A stretch of DNA of 64,000 nucleotides from Rhizobiales bacterium CCH10-E5 (GTDB lineage Bacteria; Pseudomonadota; Alphaproteobacteria; Rhizobiales; Beijerinckiaceae): positions 58,707 to 122,706 of the forward strand of contig LSIG01000212.1 in assembly GCA_001556125.1 (NCBI GenBank), given 5' to 3'. This document shows, one piece after another, positions 35,269 to 64,000 of the stretch. The notes beneath the pieces are model-generated. The model made no database searches. It worked only from the letters and a program-made list of their open reading frames with translations, and had not been told where the DNA came from. Position 1 is the stretch's first letter. Each line of letters starts with the position of its first letter. The translations under genes were made by a program, and so were the position numbers.

Positions 35269-38200
35269 ATGCCCGCGCCGACCAGCCTTGCGCTCTCCAA
35301 TCTCGCCGTTACCGAAAACAGCCCCTTCAGCAGCCTTGTCGGTATCCTTTCCGCGACGGACACCGATCCCGGCGACGGCATCGCCCGCTACGAACTGACC
35401 AGCGCGGGCACGCCCTTCACCATCGTGGGCAATGAATTGCGCGTCGCCGGCCCGATCGATTTCGAGGCGCAGCCGAGTTGGACGCTGACAATCCGGGCTT
35501 ATGACTTCTCCGGCGCTTTCGTCAGCGCCGACTTTACGGTCATCGTCCGCGACGCGATCGAGGGCACGGGGAATGCCGATACCCTGACCGGAACCGCCGG
35601 AGCCGAGATCATCCAGGGGCTCGCCGGCAACGACACGCTGATCGGCCAGGCGGGCGCCGACATCCTCGACGGCGGCCTCGGCCGCGATCGGGCCAATTAC
35701 GGCAACGAGACGGGAACCGGCCCGGCCGTCGTCAATCTCTCGAACGCCGCGATCCAGTACGACGCCGATGGTGCCGGGCCCGGCGCGCCGGTGACTGTGG
35801 CGGCCGGGACGGCCATCGACACCTTCGGCACGATCGATACGCTGATCGGGATCGAGGACATCCGCGGCACCACGCGGGCGGACTACCTCGTCGGCAATGA
35901 CGAGGCGAACCTGCTGCACGGTCGCGCCGGCGACGACTATCTGCGCGGCAACGGCAATTTCGACGATTTCATCGGCGGCGCCGGCACCGACATCCTCGAT
36001 GGAACAGATGTGGTCGACGATGCCGACCCAACCGATACGGTCTTAGCGCAGTTTTCGAGCGACGATCCCTTGGCGAGCGGCGTCATCGTCAACTTCGGCG
36101 ATGCAGCAGTGACCGTAGGAGCGGAAACCGTCGCCGGTCATCGCACCCGCGACGCCTACGGGTCGACCGATACGCTGATCGACATCGAGATCGCCCGCGG
36201 CACCTACAATGCCGACCATCTCTATGGCGGCGACACCGGCAACGACGACTATGAGGGCTTCGAAGGCCTCGCCGGCAACGACGTCATCGACGGCGGCAGT
36301 GGCTTCGACGAAGTCCGCTACACCAATGACGCCGGCTATCAGAACGCCGCCGGCCAGCTCGGAACGCAGGGTGTCGTCGTCAACCTCTCGACCACCGCCA
36401 GGACTGTCGATCTCGACGGCACAGGCCCAGGCGCTCCGATCGTCGTGGCCGCCGGCACGGCCCGTGACGGCTATGGCGATACGGACACGCTGACCTCGAT
36501 CGAGGGCGTCCGGGCGACCAATGCCAATGACTGGATCTTCGGCGGCGCGGGTGACGAACGCTTCCGCCTCTTCGCCGGCGCCGATGTCGTCGACGGCGGC
36601 GGCGGCACCGACCAGGTCGATTACCGGCGCGAATGGACCGGGGGCAACGGCGTCACCGTCGTGCTCGGCGGCACCGTCGCGGTGAACGGCGTCACGGCGG
36701 GCACGGCGCGCGACGTCTCAGGCGCGATCGACACCCTGATCTCGATCGAAGACATCCGCGGCACGGACGGCTCCGACGCCATCATCGGCGACAACGCCGC
36801 CAATCTTCTGCGCGGCGAAGGCGGCGGCGACAATCTCACCGGCAATGGCGGCAACGACACGCTGCATGGCGGCGCCGGGTTCGACCGCGCCAATTACGGC
36901 AACGAGTCCGGCGGCATCCCTGGTCGCGGCGTCATCGTCAATCTTTCGGCCAGCGCGATCACGGCCGATATCGGTGCCGGCTCCACCGTGGTCGCCGCCG
37001 CCTCCGCCATCGATACCTATGGCGCCACGGACACGTTGATCTCGATCGAGAATGTCCGCGGCACGAGCAACGCGGACCATATCGTCGGTGACGGCCAGTC
37101 GAACACGATCTTCTCCCGCGGCGGAGCCGACATCGTCATCGGCGGCGCGGGCAGCGACTTCCTTCATGGCGGCGGAGGCGCGGATACGCTCGACGGTTCG
37201 GTCCCCGGCGGCGACGGCTTCGATGTCGACACGGCCTTTTACCAGTCGGATCTGACCGACACGCTGACGACCGGCATCCACGTCAACCTGTCCGGCGTCG
37301 CGGTGACGCTGACGGACCCGGTCCCCGGCACCGGCACCATCACCATCGCGGCCCATTCGGCGAAGGATCCGCTTTACACGGGCGCGGCGAGCGAGGCCGT
37401 CGACACTCTGATCGACATCGAGGCCGTACGCGGAACCATGCTGTCCGATGTGCTGATCGGCGGCGACAGCCAGAACGACGCCTACGAGGGCTTTGAGGGC
37501 CTCGGCGGTGACGACTACATCGACGGCGGCTCCGGCTTCGACGAGGTCGGATATGCCAACGGGTCTTCGGTCGGCGGCACGCAGGGCGCGACCGTCAATC
37601 TGAGCGCGACAGACCGCGTGGTGAACGGGATCACCGTCGCCGCGCAAACCGCGCAGGACGGCTTCGGGGGTATCGATCGGCTCGTCTCGATCGAGGCAGC
37701 GCGTGGCTCTTCCTTCGCCGACACGCTGATTGGCGGTGACGGTGCAGAGCGCTTCTCCGGTCTCGCCGGAGCCGATGTCATCGACGGCGGCGGCGGCATC
37801 GACACGGTCAGCTGTCTCTTCGATACCAACTTCGGAGGCCAGCAGGGCGTCCAGGTCAACCTGAGCGCGGTCGCCGTCGGCACTATCGCAGCCGGAACGG
37901 CGCGCGACGGCTTCGGAACCATCGACACGCTGGTCTCGATCGAGAACGTTCAGGGCACGTTCTTCGCCGACAGCCTGATCGGCTCGTCCGAGGCCAACGC
38001 CTTCACCGGCTTCGGCGGCAACGACTTCATCTCGGGCGGCGATTTCGCTTCACCGAGCAATCCCGGCGGCGACGTCAACGACCGGGTCTTCTACAGCGGC
38101 GCGCGAAGCGACTACAGCATCGCCCGCTCCGGCAATGGCCCCTCCTATACCGTCACCGATCTGCGCGCCGGCTCTCCCGACGGTTCCGATTTCGTGGTCA

Positions 38201-41200
38201 ACGTCGAATACCTTCACTTCACCGATCAGACGCTTGATCTCCGGCAGGCCTTCAACCGCGCCCCGACGGACATCACCCTGTTCGGCTCGCAGGTGCAGGA
38301 GAACATGCCGGGCTTCGCCGTCGGCGGGCTGAATGTCAGCGACCCGGATTTCGAGACCGTCTTCACCTTGACCGTCTCCGATGCCCGTTTCGAAATCGCC
38401 AACCCCGGCTTCTACCAGCTCAAGCTGAAGGCCGGTGTCACCCTCGACCACGAGACCGAGCCGACCGTCACATTCGACGTGACGGCAACGGACCTCTGGG
38501 GCAGCAGCTTCACCAAATCGGTGACGCTCGACGTCCAGAACATGAACGATGCGCCGATCGTCGCGAGCCCGATCCCGGATCAGGTCGCCACGGTCGGCCA
38601 GCCCTTCAGCTACGTCATCCCCGCCGGCACGTTCTCGGACCAGGACGGAAACACGCTCGCCCTGTTCGTGCAGAATATGCCCGGCTGGATGAGCTATGAT
38701 CCGGTCACGCGGACCTTGAGCGGCACGCCGACGCCAGGCGCCCCGAGCACGACACTGACGGTTCTGGCCAATGACGGAGCCGGCGGCCAGGCTTCGGACA
38801 GCTTCCAGCTGACGGTCAGCGGTCCGGCAATCAACCAGATGCCGGTGATCGTGACCCCGATTCCCGACCAGGTGGCGCGGATCGGGCAGGCCTTCAGCTA
38901 CACCATCCCGGCCGGAGCCTATGTCGACCCCGAGGGCCAGCAGCTGACCGTCACCGTCATGGCGCCAGCCGCACCCTGGCTCACTTACGATCCGACGACG
39001 CGGACGATCTCGGGCACGCCGCCGGTCGGTTCATCGACCGTGACCGTCAACGTGATGATCTCGGACGGTTCGGGGGGCTTCGCATCGGACAGGTTCAATC
39101 TGTCCGTCGGAAGTCCCGGCCAAGATCTGCCGCCGACGCTCCAGTCGGAGGTGCTGAACCAGTTCGTCACGGTCGGCCAGCCCTTCAGCTACACGATCCC
39201 GGCGAATGCCTATTTCGATCCAGAAGGCCAGCCGCTGACGCTGACCCTCGTCGGTCAGCCGGCCTGGCTCAGCTTCGATCCCGTCACGCGCACGATGTCG
39301 GGCACGCCACCGGCCGATTTTCTGCAGGCCTCGCTGGCGGTGTCTGTGTCGGACGGCGTCAATCCGCCGGTCACCGATGGGTTCACGGTGACGCGTGCCG
39401 GCTATCTCAACCAGATGCCGGCCATTGTGACGCCGATCCCGGACCAGGTGGCGCGGATCGGCGAGCCCTTCAGCTACACGATTCCGGCCGGGGCGTATGT
39501 CGATCCCGAGGGGCAGCCGCTCGCCATCAGCGTGATCGCACCAGCTCCGTGGCTCAGTTACGATCCGGCGACGCGGACGATCTCCGGTACGCCGCCCGCC
39601 GGTACCATGACGTTCTCGGTCAGCGTGAACGTTAGCGACGGCTTCGGCGGCATCGCTCTCGACAGCTTCAACCTGTCCGTCGGCAGCGTCGGCCAGGACC
39701 TGCCGCCGACGTTCCAGTCGGAGATGCTGAACCAGTTTGTCACGGTCGGCCAGCCCTTCAGCTATACGATCCCGGCCAATGCCTATTTCGATCCCGAGGG
39801 CCAGCCGCTGACGCTCACCCTCGCCGGTCAGCCGGCCTGGCTCAGCTTCGACCCCGTCACGCGCACGATGTCAGGGACGCCTCCAGCGGATTTTCTGCAA
39901 GCCTCGCTGGCGGTCTTGGTATCGGATGGCGTCAATCCGCTGGTCGTCGATGGGTTCACGCTGCAGCGGGCGGGATACTTCAATCAGTCTCCCATGATCG
40001 CGGCACCGATCCCGGATCAGGTCGCTACGATCGGCCAGCCCTTCAGCTATACGATCCCTGCCGGGGCCTATGTCGATCCTGAGGGTCAGCCGCTGACCAT
40101 CAATGTGATGGCCCCGACCGCTGGCTGGCTCAGCTACGATCCGGCCACACGCACGATCTCGGGCACGCCGCCCGCTGGTTCGTCCACAGTTTCGCTGCAT
40201 GTGTCGGTCTCGGACGGCTTTGGCGGCATCGCCTCTGACTTCTTCAACCTGTCCGTCGGCAGTGCGCCGACCAACCAGGCCCCCACCGCGATCGCGTTGT
40301 CGGGCACCGATCTGCCGGAGAATGTCAGCTTTGCCCAAATCGGCACGGTGGTCGTCACCGATGCGGATTCGACGAGCTTCACCTTCCAGCTGTCCGATCC
40401 TCGGGTCGAGATCATCGGCGGCCCGGGAAATTACGTGCTGCGCGTCAAGGAAGAGACGGTTTTCATCGCCGAGGACACGCCGACGTTTCCGCTGACGATC
40501 ACCGCCACCGACGCCCAGGGCGGTTCATTCAGCCAGACTTTCGTGATCACCGTGAACAACATCGTCGTCGCGGGCACCAACGACAACGACAACATCGTCG
40601 GCGATGACAGCAGCCAGACCATCAACGGCCTCGATGGCAACGACTACATCTTCGGACGCGGCGGCGACGATACGCTCTACGGCGACGCCGGCGACGACAT
40701 CCTGATCGGCGAAGCCGGCAATGACAGCCTGTTCGGCGGCACGGGTTTCGATCATGCCAACATTCACGTCCCTTTCGGCACGCAACCGCTGAGCTATAGC
40801 GTCTCCGGCGCGATCGCCACCGTCACAGGCAGCAGCGGGCCGCTCTTTGCAATCGAGCGGCTGGCTGGCGGCACCTATGAGGTCCGCGATCTCCGTCCCG
40901 GCGCGCCCGCGGGCGTCGACACCTTGGCGGCCGATATCGAGGCGTTCACGGTGGTCATCGACCCGGAGACCCCGGGTCCCTTCCCGTTCGATGCACTGAC
41001 ATTGCGGCTCCAGCCCTCCGCCCAGCCGGGCTACATTGCCGGGAGCGTCTTCGGTGAAACCCTCGACGTCATGGCGCTGATGCCGACGGTCGATGCCGAC
41101 ACGCCGGTCTCCGTCGATGCTGGCGACGGCGACGATGCGATCACCGGCCATGCCGGCTCCAACTTTATCACTGGCGGCGCCGGCGACGACGAGATCTCCG

Positions 41201-44200
41201 GGGGCGGCGGCTTCGACACGGCGAGTTATGCGCTGTCCGCCGGGACGGCAGGGACCTTGTCCTCCGTCACCACCGGCAACGTTACCCTCGTGCGCCTGAC
41301 CGACGGCGCGACCGTGACCAATGTGTTCCGCGTCACGGCCTCCGGTGCCTCGGTCACCGTCGAGGATCTGAGGCCAGGGTCGCCTCTGGGCACCGACATC
41401 GTCCATGTCGGCTCCGGCCCGTCCTTCGAGACCGAGTTGCTCGCCTTCGCGATCAGCGGCGTCGGCAATGCGCCCCCTGTCCAGACCCTCTATCTCAATA
41501 TTGCGCCGCAGGCCTTCAGCAATGCCGGCGGCGGCTTCATCCAGGGAGGCATCGGCGCCGATACGATCTCCGCCACTGTCTTCTTCGCCAGTGCCGGCGC
41601 TGCCGATGCCATCGGCATCAACGGCGGCTCCGGCGATGACGTCATCACCGGCCATGCGGGCTCGAACTTCATCACCGGGGGAGCAGGGGACGATGTCATC
41701 AGCGGCGGCGGCGGCATCGATTCCGCCGCCTTCATGTTGCCGTTGGGCACACCCGGCACGCTGAGTTCCGTCACGGCGGGAGCGGTCACGCTGGTGAAGC
41801 TGACCGAAGGCGCCGCCACGACGGACGTCTTCCGGATCACGCAGACCGCCAGCGGCTGGACAGTCGAGGACCTGCGCCCCGGCTCCCCGCTCGGCACCGA
41901 CACGCTCGACCAGACCGTCGAGAACCTGTCCATCGGGATCGAGGGCAGCCCGGGTCAGCCCCCCGTGCACTCGCTGTTCCTGAACCTTACGCCGCAATTC
42001 TTTCCGAACGGCAATGGCGGCCTCGTGCAGGGCGGTATCGGCAGCGACGTCGTCTCGGTCGCGACGCTGGCTCCGGCTGCGGGCGCGACCGACGTCGTGG
42101 GCGTCAATGGCGGCTCCGGCGACGACATCATCACCGGCCATGGCGGCGCGAATTTCATCGAGGGCGGCGCCGGCAACGATGCGATCGCCGGCGGCGGCGG
42201 CCGCGATGTGGCGCAATACATCCTGCCGTCGGGCACGGCGGGCTTCATCGGCGCCGTTCGCGACGATGACGACGTCGTCCGCCTGACCTTGAACGACAAT
42301 GGCAGCGTCAGCGACCTGTTCTCCATCGTTCGCAATGGCAATGGCACCTGGACAGTCACGGATCTGCGTCCCGGCGCACCGTTGGGCACCGATACGCTCG
42401 CGGCCGATGTCGAGCAGATCTCGGTCTTCGTGCCGTCGTCGCCGGCGGCGATCGTCGTCAACCTCGTGCCGCTGACGGAGATCGCCAACGGCGTCACTTC
42501 GGTCTTCGGTTCGATCGAGCCCGACGTCCTCACCGCGAGCGGCCCGTCCAACAGCCAGATCAACCTCTTCGGCAATCTCGGCAACGACACTCTGACCGGC
42601 CATGGCGGCACGAACTATCTCAATGGCGGGCCGGGTCGTGACGTGCTCGACGGCGCCGGCGGCAACGACACGCTGGTGGGCGGCGGTGGCGCGGACCAGA
42701 TCAATGGCGGAGCCGGATCCGATCTCGTCAACTATGGCGACGAGACCGGCGTCACCGGCGTCGTCGTCAACCTGTCGGGCGCGGCCGTCACGGTCGATGG
42801 CACGGTCTTCGCGGCGCGCACCGCCCGCGACAGCTACGGCCAGACCGACACGCTCTCCGGCATAGAGAACATTCGCGGCACGACCTTCGCCGACACGCTG
42901 ATCGGCGACAATCTCGAGAACGATCTCCAGGGCGGCTCCGGCAACGACACGCTGATCGGCAACGGCGCTTCGGACGGCTTCAATGGCGGCGCTGGAGACG
43001 ACCTCATTGACGGCACGGCCGTGCCCGGCGACAGCGACGATACCGACCAGGTCTACTACCAGTTCACCAACGAGACCGTCGCCACGGGCGTCCGCGTCAA
43101 CCTTTCGGGGAACGCGGTCACCCATCTCGATGGCGGCGTCATCGCGGCCCGCTCCGGCCAGGACAGCTATGGCGGCGTCGATACGCTGATCGACATCGAG
43201 GTCGTCCGCGGCACCAACCTCGCCGACGTGCTCTATGGCGGCGACAACGGCAATGCCGATTTCGAGGGCTTCCGCGGCCTCGGCGGAGCCGACTACATCG
43301 ATGGCGGCGCCGGCTTCGACGAGGCGCGCTACGACCGCGACGCCCAGTTCGGCGGCACCGCCGGCGTGGTGGTCAACCTCAGCGGCTCGAGCCGCACGGT
43401 TGATCGCGACGGAGCCGGCCCTCAGGCGCCGGTCACCATCGCGGCCGGTTCGGCGATCGACGGCTTCGGCACAATCGATACGCTCGTCGGCATCGAGGCG
43501 GCGCGCGGCACCGTCCAGGCCGACGTCTTCATCGGCGGCGGCGAGGACAATGCCTTCATGGGCCTCGCAGGCGCCGACAGCTTCGATGGCGGCGGCGGCA
43601 CCGACACGGTGCGCTACGATCAGGAGTTCAACAATGGCGGCGCGCCCGTGGGCGTGCGGGTCAATCTGAGCGGCACCGTCCAGACGCTGGGCGGGACGGT
43701 CGTCGCGGCGGGAACGGCTATTGACAGCTTTGGCGCCGTCGACAGCCTGACCAGCATCGAGACGATCCGCGGCACGCGCTTCGACGATATCGTCCATGGC
43801 GGCAATGCCGGAGAGACGCTGCGCGGCGAGGGCGGCAACGACGTCTTCTACGGCAATGGCGGGATCGACACGCTCAGGCTGAACGGCAACCGCGTCGATT
43901 ACAGCGTCACTGCGATCGCGCCCGGCCGCTTCGAGGTCGTCGATCTGCGCGCCGGCTCGCCTGACGGCACCGACACGATCTACGATGTCGAGCGCATCCG
44001 CTTCCTCGACGGCACGGTCGATATCTCCGTGCCCGAGGCGGCGCCGACCGACATCACCGTCACGGGCCCGCTCTCCGTGCAGGACACCAGCGGGGCCGGC
44101 ACCACGGTCGCGACCTTCGGCGTCGTCGATGCGGGCGATCTCGGCCCGCACATCTACACCCATGTGGGCGGCGCGACCGACCGTTTCGCGATCGCCGGCG

Positions 44201-46272
44201 ACCGGCTCGTCGTCGCCGCTGGCGCGAGCTTCGACGCCGAGAATGAACCGGTGATCTCGGTGACCGTGCGCGTGACCGATCCCGGCGGGCTCAGCTATGA
44301 CGAGACCTTCACCGTCACCGTCGGCAGCCGCAGCCTCGGCGGGTCCGGAAACGACACGCTGACCGGCACCGGCGGCGCGGACCGGCTGTTCGGCCAGGGC
44401 GGCAACGACATCCTGATCGGACTCGACGGCGACGACGCGCTCAACGGCGGCACGGGTGCCGACGAGATGCAGGGCGGTGCGGGCAACGATTCCTACACCG
44501 TCGACGATGCCGGCGATCAGGCGATCGAGACCGTCGGTGGCGTCGATGCGGGCGGGCTCGATCGGGTCACGGCCTCGGTCAGCTTCACCCTCGGAGACTT
44601 TGTCGAGAACCTGACCCTGACCGGCACCGCCGACATCGATGGCACCGGCAACGGGCTGGACAACCGCCTGCTCGGCAATGCCGGCGCCAACGTCCTCGAC
44701 GGACTGGACGGCGAAGACACGCTGTACGGCTATGGCGGCTCCGATACGCTGCGCGGCGGCGCCGGTAACGACCGGCTCGACGGCGGCACGGGTGCCGATC
44801 TCATGGCCGGCGGTGCCGGCGACGACACCTATTATGTCGACGATGCGCTCGACCTTGTCAGCGAGGATGACGGGCAGGGCGGCGATGCCGGCGGCCTCGA
44901 TCTCGTGATGGCGACCACCAGCACGGTGCTCGCAGTGCATGTCGAAGATCTGCGACTCCTCGGCAGCGAGGCCATCGACGGCACCGGCAATGACGACGCC
45001 AACACGCTTCTGGGCAACAATGCCGCCAACCGTCTGGTCGGCCTCGGCGGTGCCGACACGCTGAACGGCTATGGCGGCAACGACATCCTCGAAGGTGGCG
45101 AGGGCGAGGACATCCTCACCGGCGGCGATGGTGACGACACCCTGCACGGCGGCGCCGATGCCGACGTGCTGAGGGGCGGAACCGGCTTCGACGCCATGTT
45201 CGGCGGCGCCGGGGACGATGTGTACTATGTCGATGATCTCGGCGACACCGTCAGCGAGGATGACGGCAGCGGCGGCGATGCCGGCGGCTTCGACACCGTC
45301 TACACCACCGTCGATCTCACGGCGGCAGCAGGGATCGAGATCATCCGAGCGAGCGGCGGGGCGGCGCTCTCGCTGACCGGCAACGACGGCGCCAACACCC
45401 TTCTCGGCAACGCGGCCGCCAACATCCTCGACGGAGCGGGTGGCGACGACACGCTCAACGGCGGCGCCGGCAGCGACACGCTGCGCGGCGGCGACGACGA
45501 CGACCGTCTGCTCGGCGGTGACGATGCCGACCAGCTCTTCGGCGGTGCGGGCGACGACCGCCTCGATGGTGGCGCAGGCGCGGATTGGATGAATGGCGGG
45601 TCCGGCAACGACACCTATTACGTCAATGACCTGGGCGACGTTGTCAGCGAGGATGACGGCAGCGGTGGGGATGCGGGCGGGTTCGACGTCGTCTTCAGCA
45701 GCGTCGACATGACGCTTTCCGCAGGGATCGAGAACCTGTCTCTCACCGGCGCCGCGGCCATCAACGGCACCGGCAACGGCCTCGACAACCGCCTCCTGGG
45801 CAACAACGCGGCCAATCTCCTCATCGGAGCGGATGGCGCCGACCAGCTTGTCGGCAATGGCGGCAACGACACGCTGATCGGCGGCGGCGGCAGCGACAAC
45901 CTCAATGGCGGGGCAGGCATGGACCGCCTCATCGGCGGGCTGGCGCGCGACATCCTCACGGGTGGGGCGGATGCCGACACTTTCGTCTTCGAGGCACTGC
46001 CCGACACGCGCGACACCATCACCGATTTCCAGTCGGGCCTCGACAAGATCGAGATCGCGAGCGCGGCCTTCGGGGGTGGGCTGGTTGCGGGAGGCTCGGT
46101 CAACCTCGCCGTCAACGGGCCGCTCGCGGCCGGCGTCGCCGGTTTCACCTACAGCACGACCAGCGGCGCCCTCGCCTGGGATGCCGATGGGCAGGGCGGC
46201 GCCGCCGCAGTGGCCGTGGCCGTCCTCACGACCAAGCCCCTGCTGACGGCGAGCGACTTCCAGCTCGTCTGA
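35269..46272 (+). CDS. Giant RTX/cadherin-like repeat protein, type I secretion substrate
   Basis: Predicted secreted, calcium-binding surface protein of 3667 aa, probably an adhesin or biofilm matrix protein. It has no signal peptide. Order: cadherin-like domain (1-95); RTX nonapeptide blocks mixed with a repeated VNLS...DTL..IE..RGT module (about 97-980); cadherin-like (about 995-1092); six putative Ig/cadherin-like domains with IPDQV, FSYTIPA and SGTPP motifs (about 1094-1670); cadherin-like (about 1667-1768); mixed RTX (1768-2920); cadherin-like (about 2926-3020); classical RTX modules with DDTYYVDD (3020-3560); C-terminal secretion region ending LTASDFQLV. No enzymatic domain is visible. 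The upstream exporter genes support type I secretion. Confidence 0.9.
38832..40284 (+). repeat. Tandem two-domain repeat within the giant RTX gene
   Basis: Unit 1 (38832-39407, 576 bp) and unit 2 (39408-39980, 573 bp) each encode an A-type domain (IPDQVARIG) followed by a B-type domain (LNQFVTVGQ). A third A-type domain follows (39981-40284). Long stretches are nearly identical at the DNA level, for example from 39166 and from 39739, which points to recent duplication of the pair. Confidence 0.85.
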
Positions 46273-54250: not shown

Positions 54251-56800
54251 TCATTCGCCAGTGTCGATATCAACCTCAACTCCGACCGCGTTCATGATTT
54301 CGGCATGGAGATTGACATCCACTTCCGCGCGAAGCGTCACGATCAGCGCGTAGCGAACGCGGCGGTTTGCCCGCTCAAGCTTCGGCTTCTCCCGCCACCA
54401 TCCGCCCACCGGATAGATCCCGATACCGTGGCGGTTCGCAAGGTCGGCCGCCGTTCCCCGCCAGACATCCGCGTGCAGTGAGCCGCGGTCCCGAAGCCGC
54501 GGTCCAAGTACCCAGCCGTCGTCGTTGCCGCCGCCGGCCACCTGCTCGTCTTCTTCACGCGCGGCTGCATTCACGCGACGACGGAAGCGATCGAAGCTCT
54601 CTTCCGCCCGTTTGACGGCAAAACGCAGACCGTGTCCCGCGTAGCGGTGACGCCTCGTCCAGCCACGCTCGCCCGGATTGGGCTCAATGAAGTAGCTGAG
54701 CGTTACGCGCATCTCGACCATCGTTTCGCCAACGGCGTTGAGCGCATCAGCCGGCCACGGCAGATCATGAAGGATCATGTCCCGGCTCTTTACGGAGGAG
54801 CCTTCGGCCTCATAGGGCTGCAGCTCTGACTCGATCACGAGCGTGACGTCATTGCTCAGACTCCGCAGCGCCCTTCCGAGATCGGGCTGGCCGTACCCGT
54901 AGCGGCGTAGCAGGAGACGCTGGTTTGACTGGTTGGGATTGGCCGGCAGCCGGGCAAGCATAGCCGGCGTCCAGCGGGCTGAGTGAACGATGAGCCCGCG
55001 CACAGTCTCGGGCCACAGGTCCGGTTGATCTGCGAAAATCATCGCAGCAACACGGGAGACGGCAGCTGTAGCAGCGCTCGTATCGCCCGTTACGGTGAAG
55101 GCCCGCTCCTCCGGCCGGTTGAACGTTGTCAGCAATGCAAGATCATCAAGATGATCAACGCTGCCGGTAGCTGGATCGATGCCGTGATTGCCTCCCTCGA
55201 ACACGACGTCCGGTTTGATTGGCCATTCCTGGTGCCATGGGAGGGAAGTGCGGCTGCACGGAGCAAGATCGCCGGCGGGTGCCATCACCTGCCACCCCGC
55301 GAAGGTCACATCTGTGATGGTGCATTTCTCGGTCATCGCGCCGACAGTTATCGCGTTCCACGCCTGCGCCGGGCTTTCGATGCCCGACACATCATTCTGG
55401 TCGAGATATTCAGTGGCAGGATAATAGGAGCCAATGTTCCCGGCGGAGATCACGATGAGGCGCTGATCGGTTCCCTCGCCATAGGCGAGATCATCGATCT
55501 TCGCAGACCATGATGACGGGCGGCCACGCCAGTAGTCTCCATCGCTGGTTACGGCAAGGCAGAAGGCACGCCGCCTGTCAGGCGCCTGGACCTCGGCCCG
55601 CGCCATGGCCGCCGCGGTGATATGTCCGTAAAGATCAGGATCGTTCGCCCCGTGGTCCGGTAATATCTTCACCGACTCGAGGCGATGAAAGAGCTCGAGC
55701 GGCCCATTGCCGACGATCGCGTCTGTGAGATCACCGTATAGCGCGATGCCGCTCATTTGCGTGCCGTGACCGCGCCACTGCGCGCCAACATCCTCGGCGT
55801 TCCAGTCCGCACGCCAGGCCTGATGGTCCTCCGGGTCAAGCGCCTGCGTGATCAGCGGATGCCGGATCGTGCTGCCGCTATCCAGAATACAGACGGCGGG
55901 CGCATTGCCGTCCGGTAAGACGAGGCGATCGGATAGCTCGTCTGACCATTCTGTCTGCTCCGCCCCGTCCATCTCCATGAACAGGGCCGGCGTATCGCGG
56001 GCAAGGCGGAGCTCTGCTATGGCGTCGGTATTTGCGACAATGCGGCCGAGCGCCTCCGGCGTCGCACGCGCCAGCAGGACCTCCCGTTCTGCGAATGTTA
56101 CCGTGTGCTCCTTGACGGGGATATTAAGCGCACCGGCTGCGTGCATGAAAGTGGCGCGCGCCCCGGTCCGCAGCCAGACTTCAAACCAGGTTTCCTGCCC
56201 CACTTGAGGAAACAGGCGCTGGTCGTCGGTGTACAGCGAAGCCGCCTGCGCGAGCCGCGCTGCCTCGATGGAGGCTACCAGAGCCTCGTTCTTCGGGCGG
56301 CGCGATTTCTCAATCGGGTTCCCGTTCTCATCGAGGCGGTTATTGCCGTTCTCGTCCTTCTCGTAGCGGACATTGTCCTCTTCGGCATAAGTCCGCACCT
56401 TGCCGAGATAATACTCGCGCTTTGATTCCGGGACGAACACGGTTGCCTGAATGATGTCCGGGTTCTCTCGCGAGGGCTTGGCCGCAACGAGTTCGATGCG
56501 GTCCTCGCCGCGCCGGTACTCGAGATTGTCGAGTACGGCCTGCTGGCTGCGCGGAACCTCAATCTCGAGATAGAAACCCGGCTTGCCTGCCGCGACCGCC
56601 GGATCGCGGGCTGCGATCTGCTCTTCGGCCGCAGCGACAGCCGTCGTGAGCATATCCTCGAGATGCTTTGCATGTTCGGCGCGATCGCGCGGCGGTGCAC
56701 CGCCGCCACCTCCGCCACTGCGAGGCGAGGTAAAGTCCTCCCTGTCTCCATGTCCCGGAAGATAGACGTGCGGAAGCTGGCGCTGTTCATCATCGACCAT
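54251..56800 (-). CDS. ietS: S8 (subtilisin-like) serine protease, IetS-type
   Basis: Large cytoplasmic subtilase of 849 aa without signal peptide. The catalytic triad is complete: Asp307 in AVCILDSGS, His345 in WRGHGTQMSG and Ser575 in VTGDTSAATAAV (GDTSA in place of the usual GTSMA). Residues 1-50 include a glycine-rich run after TSPRS; the C-terminal 200 residues are a beta-rich domain. The gene follows ietA by 12 bp. The pairing of an AAA+ ATPase with a large subtilase matches IetAS, first described as a toxin-antitoxin-like plasmid stability pair on Ti plasmids and later as an antiphage system. Confidence 0.88.
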   Translation of the reverse strand: MVDDEQRQLPHVYLPGHGDREDFTSPRSGGGGGGAPPRDRAEHAKHLEDMLTTAVAAAEEQIAARDPAVAAGKPGFYLEIEVPRSQQAVLDNLEYRRGEDRIELVAAKPSRENPDIIQATVFVPESKREYYLGKVRTYAEEDNVRYEKDENGNNRLDENGNPIEKSRRPKNEALVASIEAARLAQAASLYTDDQRLFPQVGQETWFEVWLRTGARATFMHAAGALNIPVKEHTVTFAEREVLLARATPEALGRIVANTDAIAELRLARDTPALFMEMDGAEQTEWSDELSDRLVLPDGNAPAVCILDSGSTIRHPLITQALDPEDHQAWRADWNAEDVGAQWRGHGTQMSGIALYGDLTDAIVGNGPLELFHRLESVKILPDHGANDPDLYGHITAAAMARAEVQAPDRRRAFCLAVTSDGDYWRGRPSSWSAKIDDLAYGEGTDQRLIVISAGNIGSYYPATEYLDQNDVSGIESPAQAWNAITVGAMTEKCTITDVTFAGWQVMAPAGDLAPCSRTSLPWHQEWPIKPDVVFEGGNHGIDPATGSVDHLDDLALLTTFNRPEERAFTVTGDTSAATAAVSRVAAMIFADQPDLWPETVRGLIVHSARWTPAMLARLPANPNQSNQRLLLRRYGYGQPDLGRALRSLSNDVTLVIESELQPYEAEGSSVKSRDMILHDLPWPADALNAVGETMVEMRVTLSYFIEPNPGERGWTRRHRYAGHGLRFAVKRAEESFDRFRRRVNAAAREEDEQVAGGGNDDGWVLGPRLRDRGSLHADVWRGTAADLANRHGIGIYPVGGWWREKPKLERANRRVRYALIVTLRAEVDVNLHAEIMNAVGVEVDIDTGE

Positions 56801-56812
56801 AGTCAGCGCCCT

Positions 56813-57790
56813 TTAGTGCGAGGTTGATGTTTTTCGTTCGCTGATCGCTGCCAGAAGGTCCTGCCGCGTCACTGTTGTGCGATCGTCAAGAATGGCGCCC
56901 TTGGCAGCCTCCTCTGCGGCCCGCGCAATTTCCGCCTGGCTGAGCCCTGCGCTTGCTTCAATGATTTCCTTCCAGCGCATGCCTTTGGTGTCAAAGCCTG
57001 AGAGCCGCGCTTTCAGAATACCGCCCGAAATATCGGGGGCCGGCAGATCATAATGAATGATGTCATCGAACCGGCGGAAAAGCGCCGGATCGAGCAGCTC
57101 CGGGTGATTGGTCGCTGCGATGATTAGGCTGTCTGTGTCATCCTTTTCCAGGAACTGGAGAAACGAATTCAGCACGCGCCGTATTTCACCAACATCGTTC
57201 CGCTCGGCCCTTCGGGCACCGATTGCATCGAATTCGTCGAAGAAGTAGACGCCGCGCGTCTCGGCCATAGCGTCGAACACCTGGCGCAGCTTCGAGGCCG
57301 TCTCGCCCATAAAGCGCGTGATCAGCGACTCAAATACCACCGTGAAGAGCGGCAGCGTCAGTTCGCCCGCTAGCGCTGCCGCGGTCATCGTTTTCCCAGA
57401 ACCGGGCGGTCCAACGAGCAGAATCTTACGCCGTGGCCGTAGCCCGTGCTCCAGCAGACGGTGATGCTGACGCTGCTCGGTGATGATCCGCTTCAGACGC
57501 TGCGACAGCGCCTCCGGCAACACCATGCTCGAAAGCCGCGTGTCCGAGTAGCTGGCGGAAATCAGTGCCGCGAGATCGCCTTTCGGCTGGGCAAGCGGAA
57601 CGGGCCGGTTACTCCTTGTAGCCTTGCGCGTGCGCGCCTCGTCGACAACGTCGCGCAGCTGCTGCGCAAGCGTGCCATGGCCAAGCCGCGCCTCATGCGC
57701 AGCGACCTGCATCGCCACGGACAGAAACTGCTCGTTGTCGCCATCGATATGGCTGCGCAGTAAGGCTATGAGGTGCTTCGCCGCGGTCAT
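56813..57790 (-). CDS. ietA: AAA+ ATPase, IetA-type
   Basis: AAA+ ATPase of 325 aa. Residues about 1-60 form the helical N-terminal domain seen in IetA-like proteins (LIALLRSHIDGDNEQFLSVA). Walker A is GPPGSGKT (about 125-132), Walker B YFFDEFDAIG, sensor 1 in IIAATNHPE and the arginine finger region in ALFRRFDD. The start at 57790 (MTAAKHL) fits the domain; a GTG at 57814 is the alternative. In pTi IetAS the ATPase is thought to restrain or direct the protease. It has its own AT-rich promoter region. Confidence 0.87.
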   Translation of the reverse strand: MTAAKHLIALLRSHIDGDNEQFLSVAMQVAAHEARLGHGTLAQQLRDVVDEARTRKATRSNRPVPLAQPKGDLAALISASYSDTRLSSMVLPEALSQRLKRIITEQRQHHRLLEHGLRPRRKILLVGPPGSGKTMTAAALAGELTLPLFTVVFESLITRFMGETASKLRQVFDAMAETRGVYFFDEFDAIGARRAERNDVGEIRRVLNSFLQFLEKDDTDSLIIAATNHPELLDPALFRRFDDIIHYDLPAPDISGGILKARLSGFDTKGMRWKEIIEASAGLSQAEIARAAEEAAKGAILDDRTTVTRQDLLAAISERKTSTSH

Positions 57791-57918
57791 CTTCCCTACT
57801 CTGGCCGGCTCCACTGGTTCGCGCGCCTGCCCAGGCTTCTCTTACACCGACTCGCAAGGGGCGTGCACCCGTTTCAGGATAACATCTACAACAAGCAAGA
57901 GCAATCATTCTGGCAATT

Positions 57919-57959: not shown

Positions 57960-60236
57960 TTACAAACCCCCTCCAGCAGAACTGCGACCCAGAGATATAA
58001 TACCATTCAGCTCTTCATCGGGCGCAATGAACTCCTGCTCTCGTGCTTCCTGATAGGAAATCCATCGGAATCCACCATTTTCAACGCGATTGAAGACGTA
58101 AATACTTGTCTCCTGCGGCTGTTGAGGTGGTCCAAGGCGGAAGAATGGAAGCGCCCGGCACATCGTGCGGGAATCGACCCCCCAAAAGGCCAGTGCGCCA
58201 GTCTTCACTTGCCTGTCGAGTTCCACCTGCCTCGCTCCGAACGTTGGGTCGCTGCCGGAGAGCAGGTCCACCTTGAATCTCAGCCCGGTGTCTGTCACCT
58301 CGGCCATGCCCGGCCGGACCAGCTGGACACTGCGCAGCAACGAGGACGTCGCCTCGTAAAGATCACGCACCTGCTGCTGCAGTTCGCGCTCAAGGCGCTC
58401 GGCATCGCTCGTTTTCAAATGCCCCCCGTGGCCCTTCCAGCTGTTGCGAAAGCGCCGTGCTACATCCAGCGGTTCGGTCGCTTTGCCAAGGCCGGCAAGC
58501 GTGCTTGCAATCTGCACCAGCTCAGGACCGCCGGTCTCGATCGCGGCCGTCCTCAGCTCCTTGTCGCTCGTAATGCGCGCCGTATCCTTCAGACTCGCCC
58601 CTGCAAGGCCGATCCAGAACCCGAAATCCGCGCGCTCGATGCCCGCGCTCCCGGCAGGATGAAGCCACTTGGCGAGTACCTCCGGCCAGTCCTGCCGCAA
58701 CGCTTTGACATGGCTGGCGCCGACCGCAGCGAGGTAGACGGCGAACATCTCGAAGAAATGCAGCAGCGTTTCGAGCCGCTCCTTCGGCTCGGTCGAGACC
58801 TGGTAACGCCGATAGATCGTGGCCAGCGGGTAAGGCAGCTCGCGCCACCAGTCGGCAATCCGCCGTTCGATATCGAGCACCGCCTTGAGAGCATCGACCC
58901 GCTCGGCTGTCTCGGAAACTGCGGTCCAATCCTGCTCGAGCGTAGCCTGCATGTCGCGAAACGCGGCCTGCAGAAGGCCGATGTCGCTGTCGACCCGGGC
59001 GATCCGCTCCTGTGTCGGGAGATTGGGAATGGGAAGCTCTAATGAAAGCAGCGCGTCGACGCCTATACGCTGGATAGTTGCTCCGCTCGCAATCCCGCTC
59101 CGCAGCTGCTGGCCGTATGGGCCGTTCAGCAGCTGCGCGAGAAAACGGGGGTTTGCCTGCTTCCCGTCAATGATGAGGCGATAGACCGAACGCGGCTTGA
59201 CCGTCTGTTCTTCGAGATCGGCCGTGACGCGGCTGCCGGCATATTCAGGCACAAAAAGCAGCGCCGTTCCCTTGAAGTCATCCGGCAGCGGACGGTCGGC
59301 GCGTTCCACCCGCTCATCGGCAAGCAGGGAGCGGACCGTCTTCAGCTCGTGCCGTCCCCGCGGTGTCAATCTACGGATCAGACGCTCATGCTCGAGATCC
59401 ATGAAGCTGCGCTGATCGTCTACGGCGAGCCACGCCCAGACAGCGCCAGGCTTTTTGACCGGCCCTGTCTTTAGAGCCGAGACGATAGAAGCTACGTCTT
59501 CCTGTGCGCGAAGGCCGCCGACGAATTTTTGTTTCTGCTTTTGCCGGCGGAATACGATCAGCGTGCCTTCGATATTGGTGCCCGCCAGCGCGCCTGGGGC
59601 CAAGTCGATCACGGCGGCAACATGGAGTCCTTTCTCCGCCAGCGCCGGAAAGGTGCCTCGCGCCGCGCGGCTGAACAGGACGCCGCGCGGCGTGACCCAG
59701 CAAAGGACGCCGTCATCGGCAAGTGCTGGCGCAAGGCCGGAGACAACCTCGCTGCCGAACCCGTCACCGCCATTGGTTCGCATTCCGAACGGCGGCGCAC
59801 AGATGATCGCGCCGAACCGATCATCGGCAGGCATGACAGGCATGCCGGCAGAGACGGTAGCCGGCGTACCCGCCAGGAGGATGTTCAGCGCCTCCGCGAA
59901 CTGGGCGTCCCGCGCGAACACAGAAAGCTGAGCACGGCCTGTCGCCGCAAGCTCTGTGGTCAACAACCTGTTATCGGCCGTGAACTCCAGCACACGAGAT
60001 GGCTTCTGACCGGCTGCCAGTGAGCAAACGAGAGAGGCCAGCGTTCCCTCGAGTGGCCCATCTGCGCCGCTGTAATAGTGGCGCGCGTGCTTACGTACGG
60101 CAGCGAGTGCCTCAGTGAGACCTAGTCCCGCCTCGCGAGCATGACGTGCGACCTCGACGGCGTTCAAAAGGCGGCCGGAAGTGCGCGCAGAATCAAGCGC
60201 GGCAAAGAGCTTCTTTTGAGCGGCCTCGCCGTTCAT
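57960..60236 (-). CDS. Degenerate N6-methyltransferase-like/HsdS-like protein with HEPN-type motif
   Basis: Protein of 758 aa in an operon with hsdR. Residues about 1-235 resemble a type I N6-adenine methyltransferase, but motif I is VLEFTADNRLL without the glycine loop and motif IV is APPF (147-150) instead of NPPF/NPPY, so methylation activity is doubtful. Residues about 345-430 resemble an HsdS target-recognition segment (LELPIPNLPTQERIARVD). Residues about 460-640 are helical and contain RNSWKGH (Arg597 to His603), fitting the HEPN ribonuclease motif RN-x4-H. The last 110 residues are unassigned. A strong GAGGA site precedes the ATG, 12 bp after the hsdR stop. The HEPN call is inference. 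Confidence 0.7.
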   Translation of the reverse strand: MNGEAAQKKLFAALDSARTSGRLLNAVEVARHAREAGLGLTEALAAVRKHARHYYSGADGPLEGTLASLVCSLAAGQKPSRVLEFTADNRLLTTELAATGRAQLSVFARDAQFAEALNILLAGTPATVSAGMPVMPADDRFGAIICAPPFGMRTNGGDGFGSEVVSGLAPALADDGVLCWVTPRGVLFSRAARGTFPALAEKGLHVAAVIDLAPGALAGTNIEGTLIVFRRQKQKQKFVGGLRAQEDVASIVSALKTGPVKKPGAVWAWLAVDDQRSFMDLEHERLIRRLTPRGRHELKTVRSLLADERVERADRPLPDDFKGTALLFVPEYAGSRVTADLEEQTVKPRSVYRLIIDGKQANPRFLAQLLNGPYGQQLRSGIASGATIQRIGVDALLSLELPIPNLPTQERIARVDSDIGLLQAAFRDMQATLEQDWTAVSETAERVDALKAVLDIERRIADWWRELPYPLATIYRRYQVSTEPKERLETLLHFFEMFAVYLAAVGASHVKALRQDWPEVLAKWLHPAGSAGIERADFGFWIGLAGASLKDTARITSDKELRTAAIETGGPELVQIASTLAGLGKATEPLDVARRFRNSWKGHGGHLKTSDAERLERELQQQVRDLYEATSSLLRSVQLVRPGMAEVTDTGLRFKVDLLSGSDPTFGARQVELDRQVKTGALAFWGVDSRTMCRALPFFRLGPPQQPQETSIYVFNRVENGGFRWISYQEAREQEFIAPDEELNGIISLGRSSAGGGL

Positions 60237-60248
60237 CCGGTTTCCTCG

Positions 60249-63248
60249 CTACGTTCTGGTCTCGCGCGTCTCGCGTAACGCGCGGTTGAAGAAGTGCCGT
60301 GTCGCCTGCTCTCTCGCCTGCGCATCCGTCAGCACGATGTTCCGCATCTCGTTGTCACGCTGGAACATCCGGATCGCGCCCTGGAAGAAGGCATTCCGGA
60401 AGGCGGCATAGACGACATCAGGGGGATTGTTGCGGAGCATCTCGGTCATGTCCTCGGTGAGGACCTCGTGGGTGACCTGCTCGAAGCGGATCATGTCTGC
60501 TTCGGTGAACTCGGTGCCGTGCCGGTCATTGAAGGCCTTCACGATCTCGGAAAGCTCGCGCCTCTCGTCTTCGGTGTAGGGATTGGCGCCAAAGCCGCTG
60601 ATCGCCTGCAGCGGATCGCTCTCGCCCGGAGACAGGGCGGCGCTGCCCTCTTCCTTCTGCACGACCTTGAAGGCCTGAAGGCGGAGCATCTCGTCCGTGA
60701 TCTCTATCTCGGGCGGCAGCTGCCGGTTCGGAAGCAGGCGCGAAAGCCACGACGCATAGGAATAGAGTTTTTCCAGCCAGGTATCCTCGAGCCGGATGAC
60801 CTGCGCGACGAAGCTGTAGAAGCGCATATAGCTCCGAAGCAGTTGCCGGAACTCCTCCTGCTGGCCGTCGTCATCCTCCGCCTCGAACCGCGCCACCGCG
60901 TGACGGACAAGCCCTTCAAGCCTTGCGCGGTCGCTGCTATCGAGCGGGCCTTTGTAGAAGGTTTCGGCGAACCGCTCGATCTCGGCCCTATCGAGATAGC
61001 CGAACTGCAGCAGGCGCCCTTCGAGCTCATAAACCTGATTAGGGTCTGACAATGCCTCGAGACTCGTCGCCTCAAAGTACGGCCGGAACGCCGCCTGAAT
61101 GTCCTCCATGGTGTTCTGAAAATCGAGGATGTAGGTCCGCTCCTTCCCGGCCTTCGTCCGGTTCAGGCGGGAGAGCGTCTGCACGGCCTGCAGCCCGGCA
61201 AGCTTGCGGTCGATATACATCGCGCAGAGCTTCGGCTGGTCGAAGCCGGTCTGGTACTTCTCCGCGACGATCAGGATCTGGTAGGTGTCGGGATAAGGCG
61301 TGCCGTCGGGCTTGAACCCGTCAAGGCGCCCCGGCAGCTCGGTGTCGGCGAAGCCGTTCACCTCAGCTTCGGTGTAGGTCTCCCCGTCCACCTTCAGGTC
61401 GCCAGAGAACGCGACAAGCGCCTTCAGGTCGGCGTAGCCCCTCGATTTGATGTAATCCCGCACGCCGAAGAAATAGCGCAGCGCATGCTCGCGGCTCTGC
61501 GTCACGATCATCGCCTTCGCCTGCCCTCCGAGCTCGCCGATGACATGGCGCCGGAAGTGCTCGACGATCACCTCGACCTTCTGCCCTATGGCCGTGGGAT
61601 GCAAGGAGGCGAACCGGGCAACGCTACGCTGGCCGCGCCGACCGCTCAGTTCCGGGTCGTCCTCGATCGCTTTCTCGAGCTGGTAATAGGCCTTGTAGGT
61701 CATGTAGTTCTGGAGCACGTCCAGAATGAAGCCTTCCTCGATCGCCTGCCGCATCGAGTAGAGATGGAACGGGTGCGGCAGGCCATCCGGCCCTTTCACG
61801 CCAAACCGCTCCAGCGTCACGTTCCGCGGCGTCGCGGTGAATGCAAAAAAGCTGATATTTGCCTGCGGTCCGCGCTGCTTCTGATACTCGGCGATGATGT
61901 CCTCGATGTCATCGCTCGAGGTCGCCTCGCGGGTCAGCGCTTCCGTCATCGCCTGAGCGGACTTGCCGGACTGGCTGCCATGCGCCTCGTCGACAATGAC
62001 GGCAAACCGCCGTTTCCCCTGCCCGGAAATCTCTTTCAGGTGCTCTGTCGAAAATTTCTGAATCGTCGTGACGATGATGCGGGCACCCTTGGCGATCGCG
62101 TCTTTTAGCTGGCGCGATGTGCCATCGATCTTCTTAACCACGCCCTGCGTCTGCTCGAACTGCGCAACTGTGTTCTGGAGCTGCCGGTCGAGCACAATCC
62201 GGTCCGTTACGATGATCGCGGTGTTGAATACCTGCTGGTCATTCTCATCGTGCAGGTTGATGGCGTGGTGTGCCGCCCAGCCAATTGTGTTCGATTTGCC
62301 GGACCCGGCGGAGTGCTGGATCAGGTAATTGTGCCCCGGCCCGAATGTCCGCGCATGGGCCATGATCCGGCGCACGGCGTCGAGCTGCTGGAACCGCGGG
62401 AAGATCATCGTCTCTTCCCGCTCGTTGCTCTCAAGATGCATGAAGCGCCCGATGACATCGAGCAGCACTTCCCGCGAGAAGATGGCCTTGCCCCATTCGC
62501 CATCGCGGTACAGGTAGGCGACCCGGAACTCGTCCTCGATCTCCTCGTTGCCGGCGCCACCGCTCCGGCCGCGGTTGAACGGCAGAAAGCGCGTCTTGCC
62601 GTTGGCAAGGCGGGTCGTCATGGAGACGTTGTCTTCATCGAGCGCAAAGTGAACGAGCGCGCCGCGCTTGAAGGTCAGCAGCGGCTCTCCCGCAGGCGAG
62701 CGGTCCGACCGGTACTGCCGCTCGGCATGCCTGAAGGTCGAGCCGGTCAGGAGGTTCTTGATCTCGAGCGTAGCGACGGGGATGCCGTTCACGAACAGCA
62801 CCACATCGATCGCGTTCTCTGATTTGAGGCTGTAGCGCACCTGCCGCATGACGGACAGGATATTCGCCTCGTATTCCTGAACACGCTTCGGCTCCAGCGC
62901 GCTCGCCGGCCGAAAGTAACACGGCGAGAACTTGATGCCGGGAATCATTTTGATGCCCGCTCGCAGCACGTCAAGCGTCGAACGAGTCTTCAGCGCCTTC
63001 TCGAGATTCTTGAACAGCTCGGCCTCTGCCGAACCCGAGTAATGCGCCTCGAGCTTCGCCCATTCATCGGGCTGCGTTTCCCGGAGGAATCGCACCACAA
63101 GCTCGCGGTCGAGGGCGGATGCCCGATCAAGGCTTTCCGGCGCGCGCAGCACATATCCCTGGCCCGCGATCAGCTGGCTGACCAGGTGATCTTCAAGCAC
63201 GATCTCCTTGTGAATGGATGCGCCGCTGCGCGTGCTCTGGTCGTTCAT
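60249..63248 (-). CDS. hsdR: Type I restriction endonuclease subunit R
   Basis: Large motor/nuclease subunit of 999 aa. The N-terminal PD-(D/E)xK nuclease is intact: Asp148 in AIDVV and Glu162-x-Lys164 in LEIKN. The helicase/translocase domains show Walker A SAGSGKS (313-319), DEAH (420-423), FTATP and the motif VI region QTLSRLNRT. The start at 63248 (MNDQST) overlaps the upstream gene's stop in an ATGA. Such subunits normally need HsdM and HsdS to bind and modify DNA; the only partner visible is the degenerate protein downstream. Confidence 0.92.
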   Translation of the reverse strand: MNDQSTRSGASIHKEIVLEDHLVSQLIAGQGYVLRAPESLDRASALDRELVVRFLRETQPDEWAKLEAHYSGSAEAELFKNLEKALKTRSTLDVLRAGIKMIPGIKFSPCYFRPASALEPKRVQEYEANILSVMRQVRYSLKSENAIDVVLFVNGIPVATLEIKNLLTGSTFRHAERQYRSDRSPAGEPLLTFKRGALVHFALDEDNVSMTTRLANGKTRFLPFNRGRSGGAGNEEIEDEFRVAYLYRDGEWGKAIFSREVLLDVIGRFMHLESNEREETMIFPRFQQLDAVRRIMAHARTFGPGHNYLIQHSAGSGKSNTIGWAAHHAINLHDENDQQVFNTAIIVTDRIVLDRQLQNTVAQFEQTQGVVKKIDGTSRQLKDAIAKGARIIVTTIQKFSTEHLKEISGQGKRRFAVIVDEAHGSQSGKSAQAMTEALTREATSSDDIEDIIAEYQKQRGPQANISFFAFTATPRNVTLERFGVKGPDGLPHPFHLYSMRQAIEEGFILDVLQNYMTYKAYYQLEKAIEDDPELSGRRGQRSVARFASLHPTAIGQKVEVIVEHFRRHVIGELGGQAKAMIVTQSREHALRYFFGVRDYIKSRGYADLKALVAFSGDLKVDGETYTEAEVNGFADTELPGRLDGFKPDGTPYPDTYQILIVAEKYQTGFDQPKLCAMYIDRKLAGLQAVQTLSRLNRTKAGKERTYILDFQNTMEDIQAAFRPYFEATSLEALSDPNQVYELEGRLLQFGYLDRAEIERFAETFYKGPLDSSDRARLEGLVRHAVARFEAEDDDGQQEEFRQLLRSYMRFYSFVAQVIRLEDTWLEKLYSYASWLSRLLPNRQLPPEIEITDEMLRLQAFKVVQKEEGSAALSPGESDPLQAISGFGANPYTEDERRELSEIVKAFNDRHGTEFTEADMIRFEQVTHEVLTEDMTEMLRNNPPDVVYAAFRNAFFQGAIRMFQRDNEMRNIVLTDAQAREQATRHFFNRALRETRETRT

Positions 63249-63952
63249 TTCGGGACCTCGCTCAGCAGTGCCGCCGGGTCCCACACACGTTCGGCCAGCA
63301 TCCGGTAAAGCTGCCCGCGCTCCTCGATGTCCGCCTTCTTGAACTCCGGATGCGCCCGGAACGGCAGCTTGCCTTCGTTCACCAATCGCAGGAAACCGGG
63401 GTTGTGGGTGTAACAGTCCGGGTGGAGCGAATGCGCGAGCAGGTTCTGTGACCGGTAGTGCTTCAGCTTCTCCTGATACGGCAGGTCGCCGTAGCTGGCA
63501 TTGAAGGACTTCGGCAGCAGCAGCAGCCCGCCGATCCGGTTGCGGTGTTCCGCGAAGTCGGATGGATGCGAGAACTCGTCCGTGTGCCGCTCGGGATGGT
63601 CGGCCCAGATATGCTCGACCTCGTAGCGGCCCGGCCCGTCGGCAATGTACTCCTGATAGCGGGAGCTCTGCCCCGACTGGGTTTCGACGTAGTCGGTCAG
63701 GCGCGCCAGTAGCCGGTGGATCGCATAGCGGTTCTGCTGGTGGACGCGCAGCCGCTCATTGCTGGCGAACTTTTCCGTCTCATCCTGCAGCTGTTTGACC
63801 AGACGCACAGCGAGCGGTCCCGCCGCGAGCCCGCGGATGTCCCGCATGATCAGGAACATCGCGTACTGCATGGTCGAGTAGGCGATGCTGCGGAAATTCC
63901 AAAGGCGCCAGGCGAGCAGCACATCCACGAAGCGCGCGACGATCCGGGACTG
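63245..63952 (-). pseudogene. 5'-truncated DUF262/DUF1524 (GmrSD-like) nuclease gene
   Basis: C-terminal part of a DUF262/DUF1524 protein. The DUF1524 HNH-type site is present: VEHIWADHPERH, then NRIGGLLLLPKSFN. The first readable residues (RIVARFVDVLLAWRLWNFRS) look like the middle of the family's domain, not an N-terminus, and an in-frame TGA lies at 63953-63955. A GTG at 63928 could still give 227 aa. The break coincides with a sequence resembling an IS terminus, so the gene is probably cut. Its stop overlaps the hsdR start, and it would have been the first or an early gene of that operon. Confidence 0.6.
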
Positions 63953-64000
63953 TCAGGATTTCCGTGTGCGGGCGGCGGGTTGAACATCAGGCCGCCATGG
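63946..64000 (-). mobile_element. Possible end of an IS256-type insertion sequence (partial)
   Basis: The sequence GGGACTGTCAGGATTTCCG starting at about 63946 resembles terminal inverted repeats of IS256-family elements as I know them. It begins exactly where the DUF262 reading frame breaks. Only about 55 bp are in the window and no transposase is visible, so this is a tentative call. Confidence 0.4.

Follow-up and report, generated by a model that had tools for sequence, protein, structure and literature searches.

Directly after an hsdR gene of the type I restriction-modification (R-M) kind, a 64,000-nucleotide stretch of DNA from Rhizobiales bacterium CCH10-E5 (contig LSIG01000212.1; the whole stretch is called the window below, and coordinates refer to it) carries a gene for a 758-residue fusion protein. 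On the strength of its conservation and predicted structure, we propose that this protein may well be a two-part immune protein, in which a DNA reader that does not methylate is coupled to an RNase-type effector acting by RNA cleavage. The protein, its parts and the adjoining HsdR are located as follows.

57960..60236, minus strand: gene for the 758-residue fusion protein, with dead-methylase, half-HsdS, HEPN-like and beta-domain parts (open frame, profile matches, conservation, predicted model)
59457..60236, minus strand: residues 1-260, HsdM-fold methyltransferase part
59949..59996, minus strand: residues 81-96, degenerate motif I site (S-adenosylmethionine-binding glycines); [DEP]xxGxG in 0 of 120 rows, some of which are gapped fragments
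59787..59798, minus strand: residues 147-150, APPF in the position of catalytic motif IV, NPP[YFW]; none of 106 lettered rows has N as its first residue
58854..59438, minus strand: residues 267-461, half of an HsdS, comprising a target recognition domain and helices (profile matches; limits from the predicted model)
58329..58850, minus strand: residues 463-636, all-helical HEPN-like segment (helical in both predicted models; conservation)
58428..58448, minus strand: residues 597-603, RNSWKGH, a motif of the HEPN type (Rx5H) where helix 571-602 ends (conservation and predicted model)
57972..58328, minus strand: residues 637-755, C-terminal beta domain accompanying the HEPN-like segment (predicted model, effector profile)
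60249..63248, minus strand: HsdR, 999 residues (open frame, motifs, similarity to EcoR124I HsdR)

The methylase and half-HsdS scaffold

Residues 1-290 of the fusion protein are predicted to adopt an HsdM-like fold. An HsdM is recognized by motif I together with the motif IV signature NPP[YFW], and neither is present: residues 81-96 read RVLEFTADNRLLTTEL, with no glycine loop, and APPF stands in place of NPPF. The original prediction had noticed both departures in this one sequence, and they proved to be a property of the family, since [NDS]PP[YFW] is kept in a single one of 336 lettered rows over three sets of relatives (1/106, 0/114 and 0/116). By contrast, the hsdM genes found beside eight relatives of the window's HsdR retain DPACGTG and NPP[YF]. 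The segment that follows had been called HsdS-like, and profile matches and the predicted model bear this out. A complete HsdS has two target recognition domains and two conserved helices; here there is one half, at about residues 267-461. PADLOC HsdS models match the protein with E-values down to 1.5e-7, and profile matches to S subunits fall at profile positions 342-450. The Pfam hits, N6_Mtase (E 0.005) and Methylase_S (E 0.019), both lie under the cutoff.

The loss of methylase motifs might suggest a decaying, functionless remnant of a fused M-S restriction gene. This is extremely unlikely. Eighteen columns are invariant across 96 aligned relatives, an alignment that reaches down to 18% identity to the 758-residue protein, and the same motif loss is found in three groups that each occupy one side of a supported branch of the tree described below. 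The sequence conservation indicates that the gene is not a decayed one, because R597, N598, H603 and E496 are invariant over the 96 sequences while the methylase motif is lost. A sequencing or decay artefact is likewise ruled out by this conservation and by the 131 proteins that match at E <= 0.001 (the best 120 of the 131 are listed). An assignment to MAD2 or MAD5 of the MADS system was also rejected, the score against NF047740 being 13 bits for a cutoff of 400.

The HEPN-like segment and its exchange with Schlafen domains

The 2013 HEPN survey (PMC3710099) gives as features of the superfamily a conserved Rx4-6H motif with a polar residue (mostly N, D or H) after the arginine, the placement of this motif at the end of helix 3 and the start of the loop to helix 4, and an acidic residue in helix 2. 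The fusion protein has a conserved motif of this form, in this position, and a conserved acidic residue. In the predicted model, R597 lies near the end of the long helix 571-602, H603 is in the loop, and the next helix spans residues 609-636; we assume these two to correspond to helices 3 and 4 in a HEPN bundle. E496 lies on an earlier helix (484-513); the frequent Ex3[KR] form is absent there. Eleven residues of the segment are unchanged in 96 of 96 rows, namely W463, L467, P468, P470, F495, E496, W541, R597, N598, H603 and G605. In a 120-row set R597 is kept in 118 of 119 lettered rows and H603 in 117 of 118, and in a second HEPN-type set all 120 of 120 rows keep R, N, W, K and H at their motif positions.

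The motif carries weight only through this invariance, because chance alone yields R-x4-6-H: the protein has five such matches, against a mean of 2.9 per shuffled protein, and the stricter R[NDH]x3-5H, seen once, occurs at least once in 186 of 1000 shuffles. RNSWKGH at 597-603 had been picked out from the sequence as a possible HEPN ribonuclease motif. It did turn out to be conserved among homologues and to lie on a helix where the HEPN literature places it; a HEPN fold and RNase activity would follow from that comparison. We call the segment "HEPN-like", a label that rests on motif, position and invariance, because structure and profile searches neither confirmed nor excluded a HEPN fold.

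A second line of evidence comes from proteins in which the back of the molecule is different. A search of sampled genomes with the family profile returned three proteins whose match ends at profile position 453-455. They bear a C-terminus of the Schlafen AlbA_2 type; the one tested in Pfam matches PF04326 at E 6.9e-19, and PF04326 is also the precomputed domain of the listed relatives of the Schlafen-type proteins. Two profiles were therefore compared, one of the scaffold, built solely from HEPN-type rows, and one of the effector part (residues 455-758). The scaffold profile matches all 20 sampled Schlafen-type proteins with 107-202 bits; the matches span about 310-360 positions, save in a truncated protein, which scores 107 bits. 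The controls stayed far lower: of seven HsdM offered four were reported, at no more than 29 bits, and of four HsdS three, at no more than 25 bits. The methylase parts of a Streptomyces and a Gordonia protein gave only 47 and 36 bits, respectively. With the effector profile, 10 of 10 HEPN-type rows match and no Schlafen-type row does. This profile also finds the second half of the split Gordonia version (186 bits), the Streptomyces protein, which has a well-scoring N6_Mtase domain (L002, 174 bits), and a Ser/Thr kinase fusion (211 bits). In this last protein (L026:8357-11008), the kinase forms the front and the HEPN-like and beta module follows it.

The Schlafen rows keep an E, a second E after four residues and a later D in 120/120, 120/120 and 119/120 cases. 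These follow the order of the SLFN13 residues E205, E210 and D248 (PMC5862951), to which they may correspond residue by residue. In a tree of 58 scaffold segments, a close HEPN clade (18 segments), a second HEPN clade (15) and a Schlafen clade (18) each lie on one side of a well-supported branch; the other seven HEPN rows fall in two places, L011, whose branch is long, standing next to the Schlafen clade. Being unrooted, the tree does not show which way the exchange went. These comparisons suggest a scaffold, presumably DNA-reading, that takes exchangeable effectors of probable RNase type. Since a Schlafen AlbA_2 domain can stand in place of the helical module, an RNase-type role for the latter becomes more likely. 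One may tentatively go further and see in these proteins a new class of immune receptors, made of non-methylating methylase/half-HsdS DNA readers with interchangeable HEPN-like or Schlafen AlbA_2 effectors, acting by RNA cleavage and abortive infection and not by cutting DNA; we regard this as possible, a little short of probable.

Mode of action and rival explanations

We favour a sensor-effector that cleaves RNA because the facts fit a non-methylating DNA reader with an exchangeable effector. The front, a type I/IIG-like methylase plus half-HsdS with its methylation motifs lost, would serve as DNA reader, and the back, made of the HEPN-like segment with its invariant E496, R597, N598 and H603 and of the beta domain, would be the RNase-type effector. 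The half-HsdS helices might pair two copies into a dimer that reads a bipartite DNA site, and this would bring two HEPN-like segments together, as one might expect because HEPN RNases are typically dimeric. The trigger could be phage DNA sites free of host methylation, or a disturbed neighbouring type I complex; sequence cannot tell between the two, although loci without hsd genes favour a sensor of its own and operon placement favours a guard. RNA cutting, once triggered, would stop the infected cell.

The neighbourhoods of relatives bear on this choice. Among 28 loci (L001-L028), 27 have a member of the family, and in 19 of them each flank measures 8 kb or more; the loci are not all independent, since the L014 and L015 proteins are 99.6% identical, those of L005 and L006 93%, and L022-L025 share neighbours. 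A type I set is present within 10 kb at eight of the 19 well-flanked loci, a count that stands without a background sample and that defence islands as such raise. Seven (L001, L003, L006, L014, L015, L016 and L020) have an hsdM with NPP[YFW], hsdS and hsdR within this distance, and L011 has hsdM, hsdS and an EcoEI-type R nearby. The closest relative with context, L003 (52-53% identical), has the order hsdM, hsdS, family gene, hsdR, GajA, GajB, and its hsdR product is 80% identical to that of the window. Members without hsd genes adjoin Gabija-type genes (L018), HamA/HamB (L007), HEC-05 (L009) and others; in L004, the family gene follows a homologue of a Salipiger Mrr-type nuclease gene, with no hsdR in the available flank.

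One rival reading makes the protein a guard, as PrrC is in EcoprrI: docked through its HsdM/HsdS-like part on the type I complex, it would stay silent until a phage disables the complex and so frees the RNase. The EcoprrI precedent (PMC3874165) is in its favour, and so is gene order. The L003 gene is flanked by hsdS and hsdR and shares 4 bases with the hsdR frame; in the window a GAGGAAA stretch precedes the gene, whose start is 12 bases downstream of the hsdR stop, and the gene also follows hsdR in Rufibacter (L020) and, split in two genes, in Gordonia (L001). In a Salipiger plasmid, an Abi_C abortive infection gene (L029:11085-11978) occupies the slot after the same type of hsdR. Nevertheless, a set of reference proteins detected no type I set near 11 of the 19 well-flanked loci, and with the same approach no hsd gene turned up over the 7, 13 and 20 kb covered at three Schlafen-type loci. 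Nor is there a match to the ABC NTPase of PrrC, Pfam giving only N6_Mtase and Methylase_S up to E 1. We consider a guard unlikely, if still the most serious competitor.

The original prediction had the protein stand in for HsdM and HsdS, bind DNA and recruit HsdR to cleave that DNA, and cut RNA in addition. The gene does adjoin an HsdR whose nuclease and motor motifs are, as had been claimed, intact by sequence: D148/E162/K164 (DVVLFVNGIPVATLEIK), Walker A GSGKS at 315, DEAH at 420 and TATP at 471 are all present. This HsdR aligns with EcoR124I HsdR (E 1.3e-8) and scores 196.2 bits against TIGR00348, under the model cutoff of 284.55. The resemblance of the fusion protein to both HsdM and HsdS fits such a model, as does the failure to find an hsdM or hsdS in the window, which ends at 64000. 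Recruitment is nonetheless very unlikely, because relatives of this HsdR own an hsdM and hsdS, L003 has all four genes, and many family members have no hsdR. Flanks were available for nine HsdR relatives, 45-80% identical (8 of 22 places plus the Salipiger plasmid; L003, L029, L056-L062); in 8 of 8 readable loci an HsdM with both motifs and an HsdS are close by, and the ninth starts at a contig end. The tie of the fusion protein to HsdR is thus, on sequence evidence, looser than had been supposed. What stands of the earlier idea is a conserved fusion lacking methylase motifs, with an RNase-type role now likelier; the recruitment of HsdR is not supported. Most likely, the window gene is accessory to a type I R-M operon, and the hsdM and hsdS of that operon would lie beyond base 64000, where we place them because relatives of HsdR carry them.

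Several results weigh against the two-part reading. Foldseek with the helical segment gave nothing significant against the PDB (best E 0.58) or against viral models (best E 0.74, a HEPN-labelled protein coming at rank 14 with E 1.8), and VIA put de novo bundles at the top and one HEPN toxin at rank 35. A profile comparison with 11 Abi_C proteins aligned the RN/RT motifs in its best local match, with a score near those of two reversed and five column-shuffled controls. To these must be added the 11 loci without a type I set, although one of them, L005, retains a 144-residue hsdR piece, and the failure of five HsdM and six HsdS references to match any of the window's 533 stop-to-stop frames of at least 60 codons at E <= 1e-3; HsdR references match only the window's hsdR among these frames. 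A sequence profile of the helical segment found no HEPN chain in the PDB (best E 0.055, a prefoldin), and Pfam gave no usable family for 25 members. The lack of a significant HEPN fold or profile match is what one would expect if the segment were a protein- or nucleotide-binding module without RNase activity and the protein a regulator or adaptor of the R-M system. We judge this rather unlikely, slightly more so than a guard, as the invariant R-N-x4-H and E (96/96) and the swap with a nuclease-type domain fit catalysis better.

HEPN-type members are rare in sampled genomes. A single one was found among 385 genomes in the class of L003 (single-protein query), 275 in its family, 369 in the class of L004, 295 in that of L020 and 259 in that of L005, and in each case it was the genome on which the search was centred. 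The samples for the classes of L004 and L020 also yielded three Schlafen-type members; six other matches in the latter were short and partial, and the longest frame at one of them, L068, is an ordinary HsdM with NPPF. Two scans of viral contigs gave no family member, and phage records gave two weak matches to the methylase part only (residues 141-247). In four methanogen loci (L022, L023, L024 and L025), a conserved gene lies within 2-5 bases behind the member and shares 75-79% identity with the L023 copy; the L023 product, the one tested, matches an OGG_N/HhH-GPD DNA glycosylase and is a possible partner. In two Bacillaceae-type loci (L005:11970-13346 and L006:12003-13379), a 458-residue protein, 95% identical between the two, follows the member; the L006 copy has no Pfam match.

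Relation to known systems and neighbouring genes

PrrC of EcoprrI resembles the fusion protein in being a HEPN-type RNase in or beside a type I R-M operon (PMC3710099, PMC3874165). Placement inside a complete type I operon, a PrrC-like trait, is seen in the relative L003; the window ends at 64000. The difference lies in the N-terminus, an ABC NTPase in PrrC and a dead HsdM plus half HsdS here. With HsdM, HsdS and the methylase enzymes bearing target recognition domains, BpuSI, MmeI, CamA and M.BseCI, the protein shares the fold and the order of methylase then target recognition domain; it differs from them in lacking catalytic and S-adenosylmethionine motifs, in having one HsdS half and in carrying a C-terminal RNase-type module. 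The R-M-linked HEPN proteins of Anantharaman et al. (2013; PMC3710099) have in common with it the Rx4-6H motif and the R-M neighbourhood. Section 10 of that survey describes R-M-linked HEPN domains as fused to endonucleases, helicases and ATPases, not to methylases, while its table mentions that the HEPN-M family is occasionally fused to nucleic acid methylase domains. Schlafen AlbA_2 proteins with a methylase-like front (for example a jgi record, "schlafen family protein/N-6 DNA methylase") are homologous in the scaffold over about 310-360 positions, AlbA_2 replacing the HEPN-like and beta domains. MADS (MAD2/MAD5) gives weak PADLOC and NCBIfam matches to the methylase and S parts, but a MADS model is the best match for none of the five scanned genes. 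The relevant part of a 2026 BREX survey describes HEPN and Schlafen RNases as BREX backup effectors and does not name this scaffold there (PMC12839542), and the DefensePredictor report has validated systems with HEPN domains, termed typically dimeric ribonucleases, with which the present family may overlap (PMC13092281).

In the titles and abstracts searched, a coverage that leaves out bioRxiv and most subscription papers, a methylase/half-HsdS/HEPN-like fusion is not described, and nothing was found there on inactive methyltransferases in type I systems or on M-S/Schlafen fusions. If the proposal is right, restriction-modification has lent its DNA-reading half to a sensor that triggers RNA cleavage, self and non-self DNA marks are linked to abortive infection within one protein, and a gap is filled in a survey whose discussion excludes methylase fusions of R-M-linked HEPN domains (PMC3710099). 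Because HEPN-like and Schlafen modules take each other's place on a common scaffold, point mutants and domain swaps in laboratory strains can put the idea to a direct test.

From the right edge of the window, the minus strand carries in order a GmrSD-like part, hsdR, the fusion gene, an IetA-type ATPase and an IetS-type peptidase. The outer genes are these.

63245..63928, minus strand: C-terminal part of GmrSD (DUF1524 HNH), PF07510 E 2.1e-9; the frame closes just upstream
56813..57814, minus strand: IetA-type AAA ATPase of a separate known defence system, PADLOC IetA E 2.3e-73
54251..56800, minus strand: IetS-type S8 peptidase, PADLOC IetS E 4.3e-35

The hsdR start overlaps the stop of the GmrSD-like gene before it. 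This part is 60% identical to residues 386-613 of a DUF262 protein of R. rhodochrous. At 63928-64000 (minus strand), the gene aligns with relatives only from residue 386 of a 619-residue protein, with an in-frame TGA directly before, and no frame of the last 50 bases to the window edge matches a DUF262 protein. Truncation of the gene or a disturbed frame may be the cause, or an error in the sequence at the window edge. TgvAB and RloF, DUF262/DUF1524 genes within type I operons (PMC11411939), are a precedent for a GmrSD-like gene directly before hsdR and are unrelated to the fusion protein.

Directly downstream of the fusion gene, after 145 bases, the IetA/IetS-type anti-phage pair (54251-57814) matches the PADLOC models of a known defence system and is apparently a unit of its own. 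Farther away, on the plus strand, a frame of 3667 residues (35269-46272) carries RTX calcium-binding repeats and Ig/cadherin-like domains.
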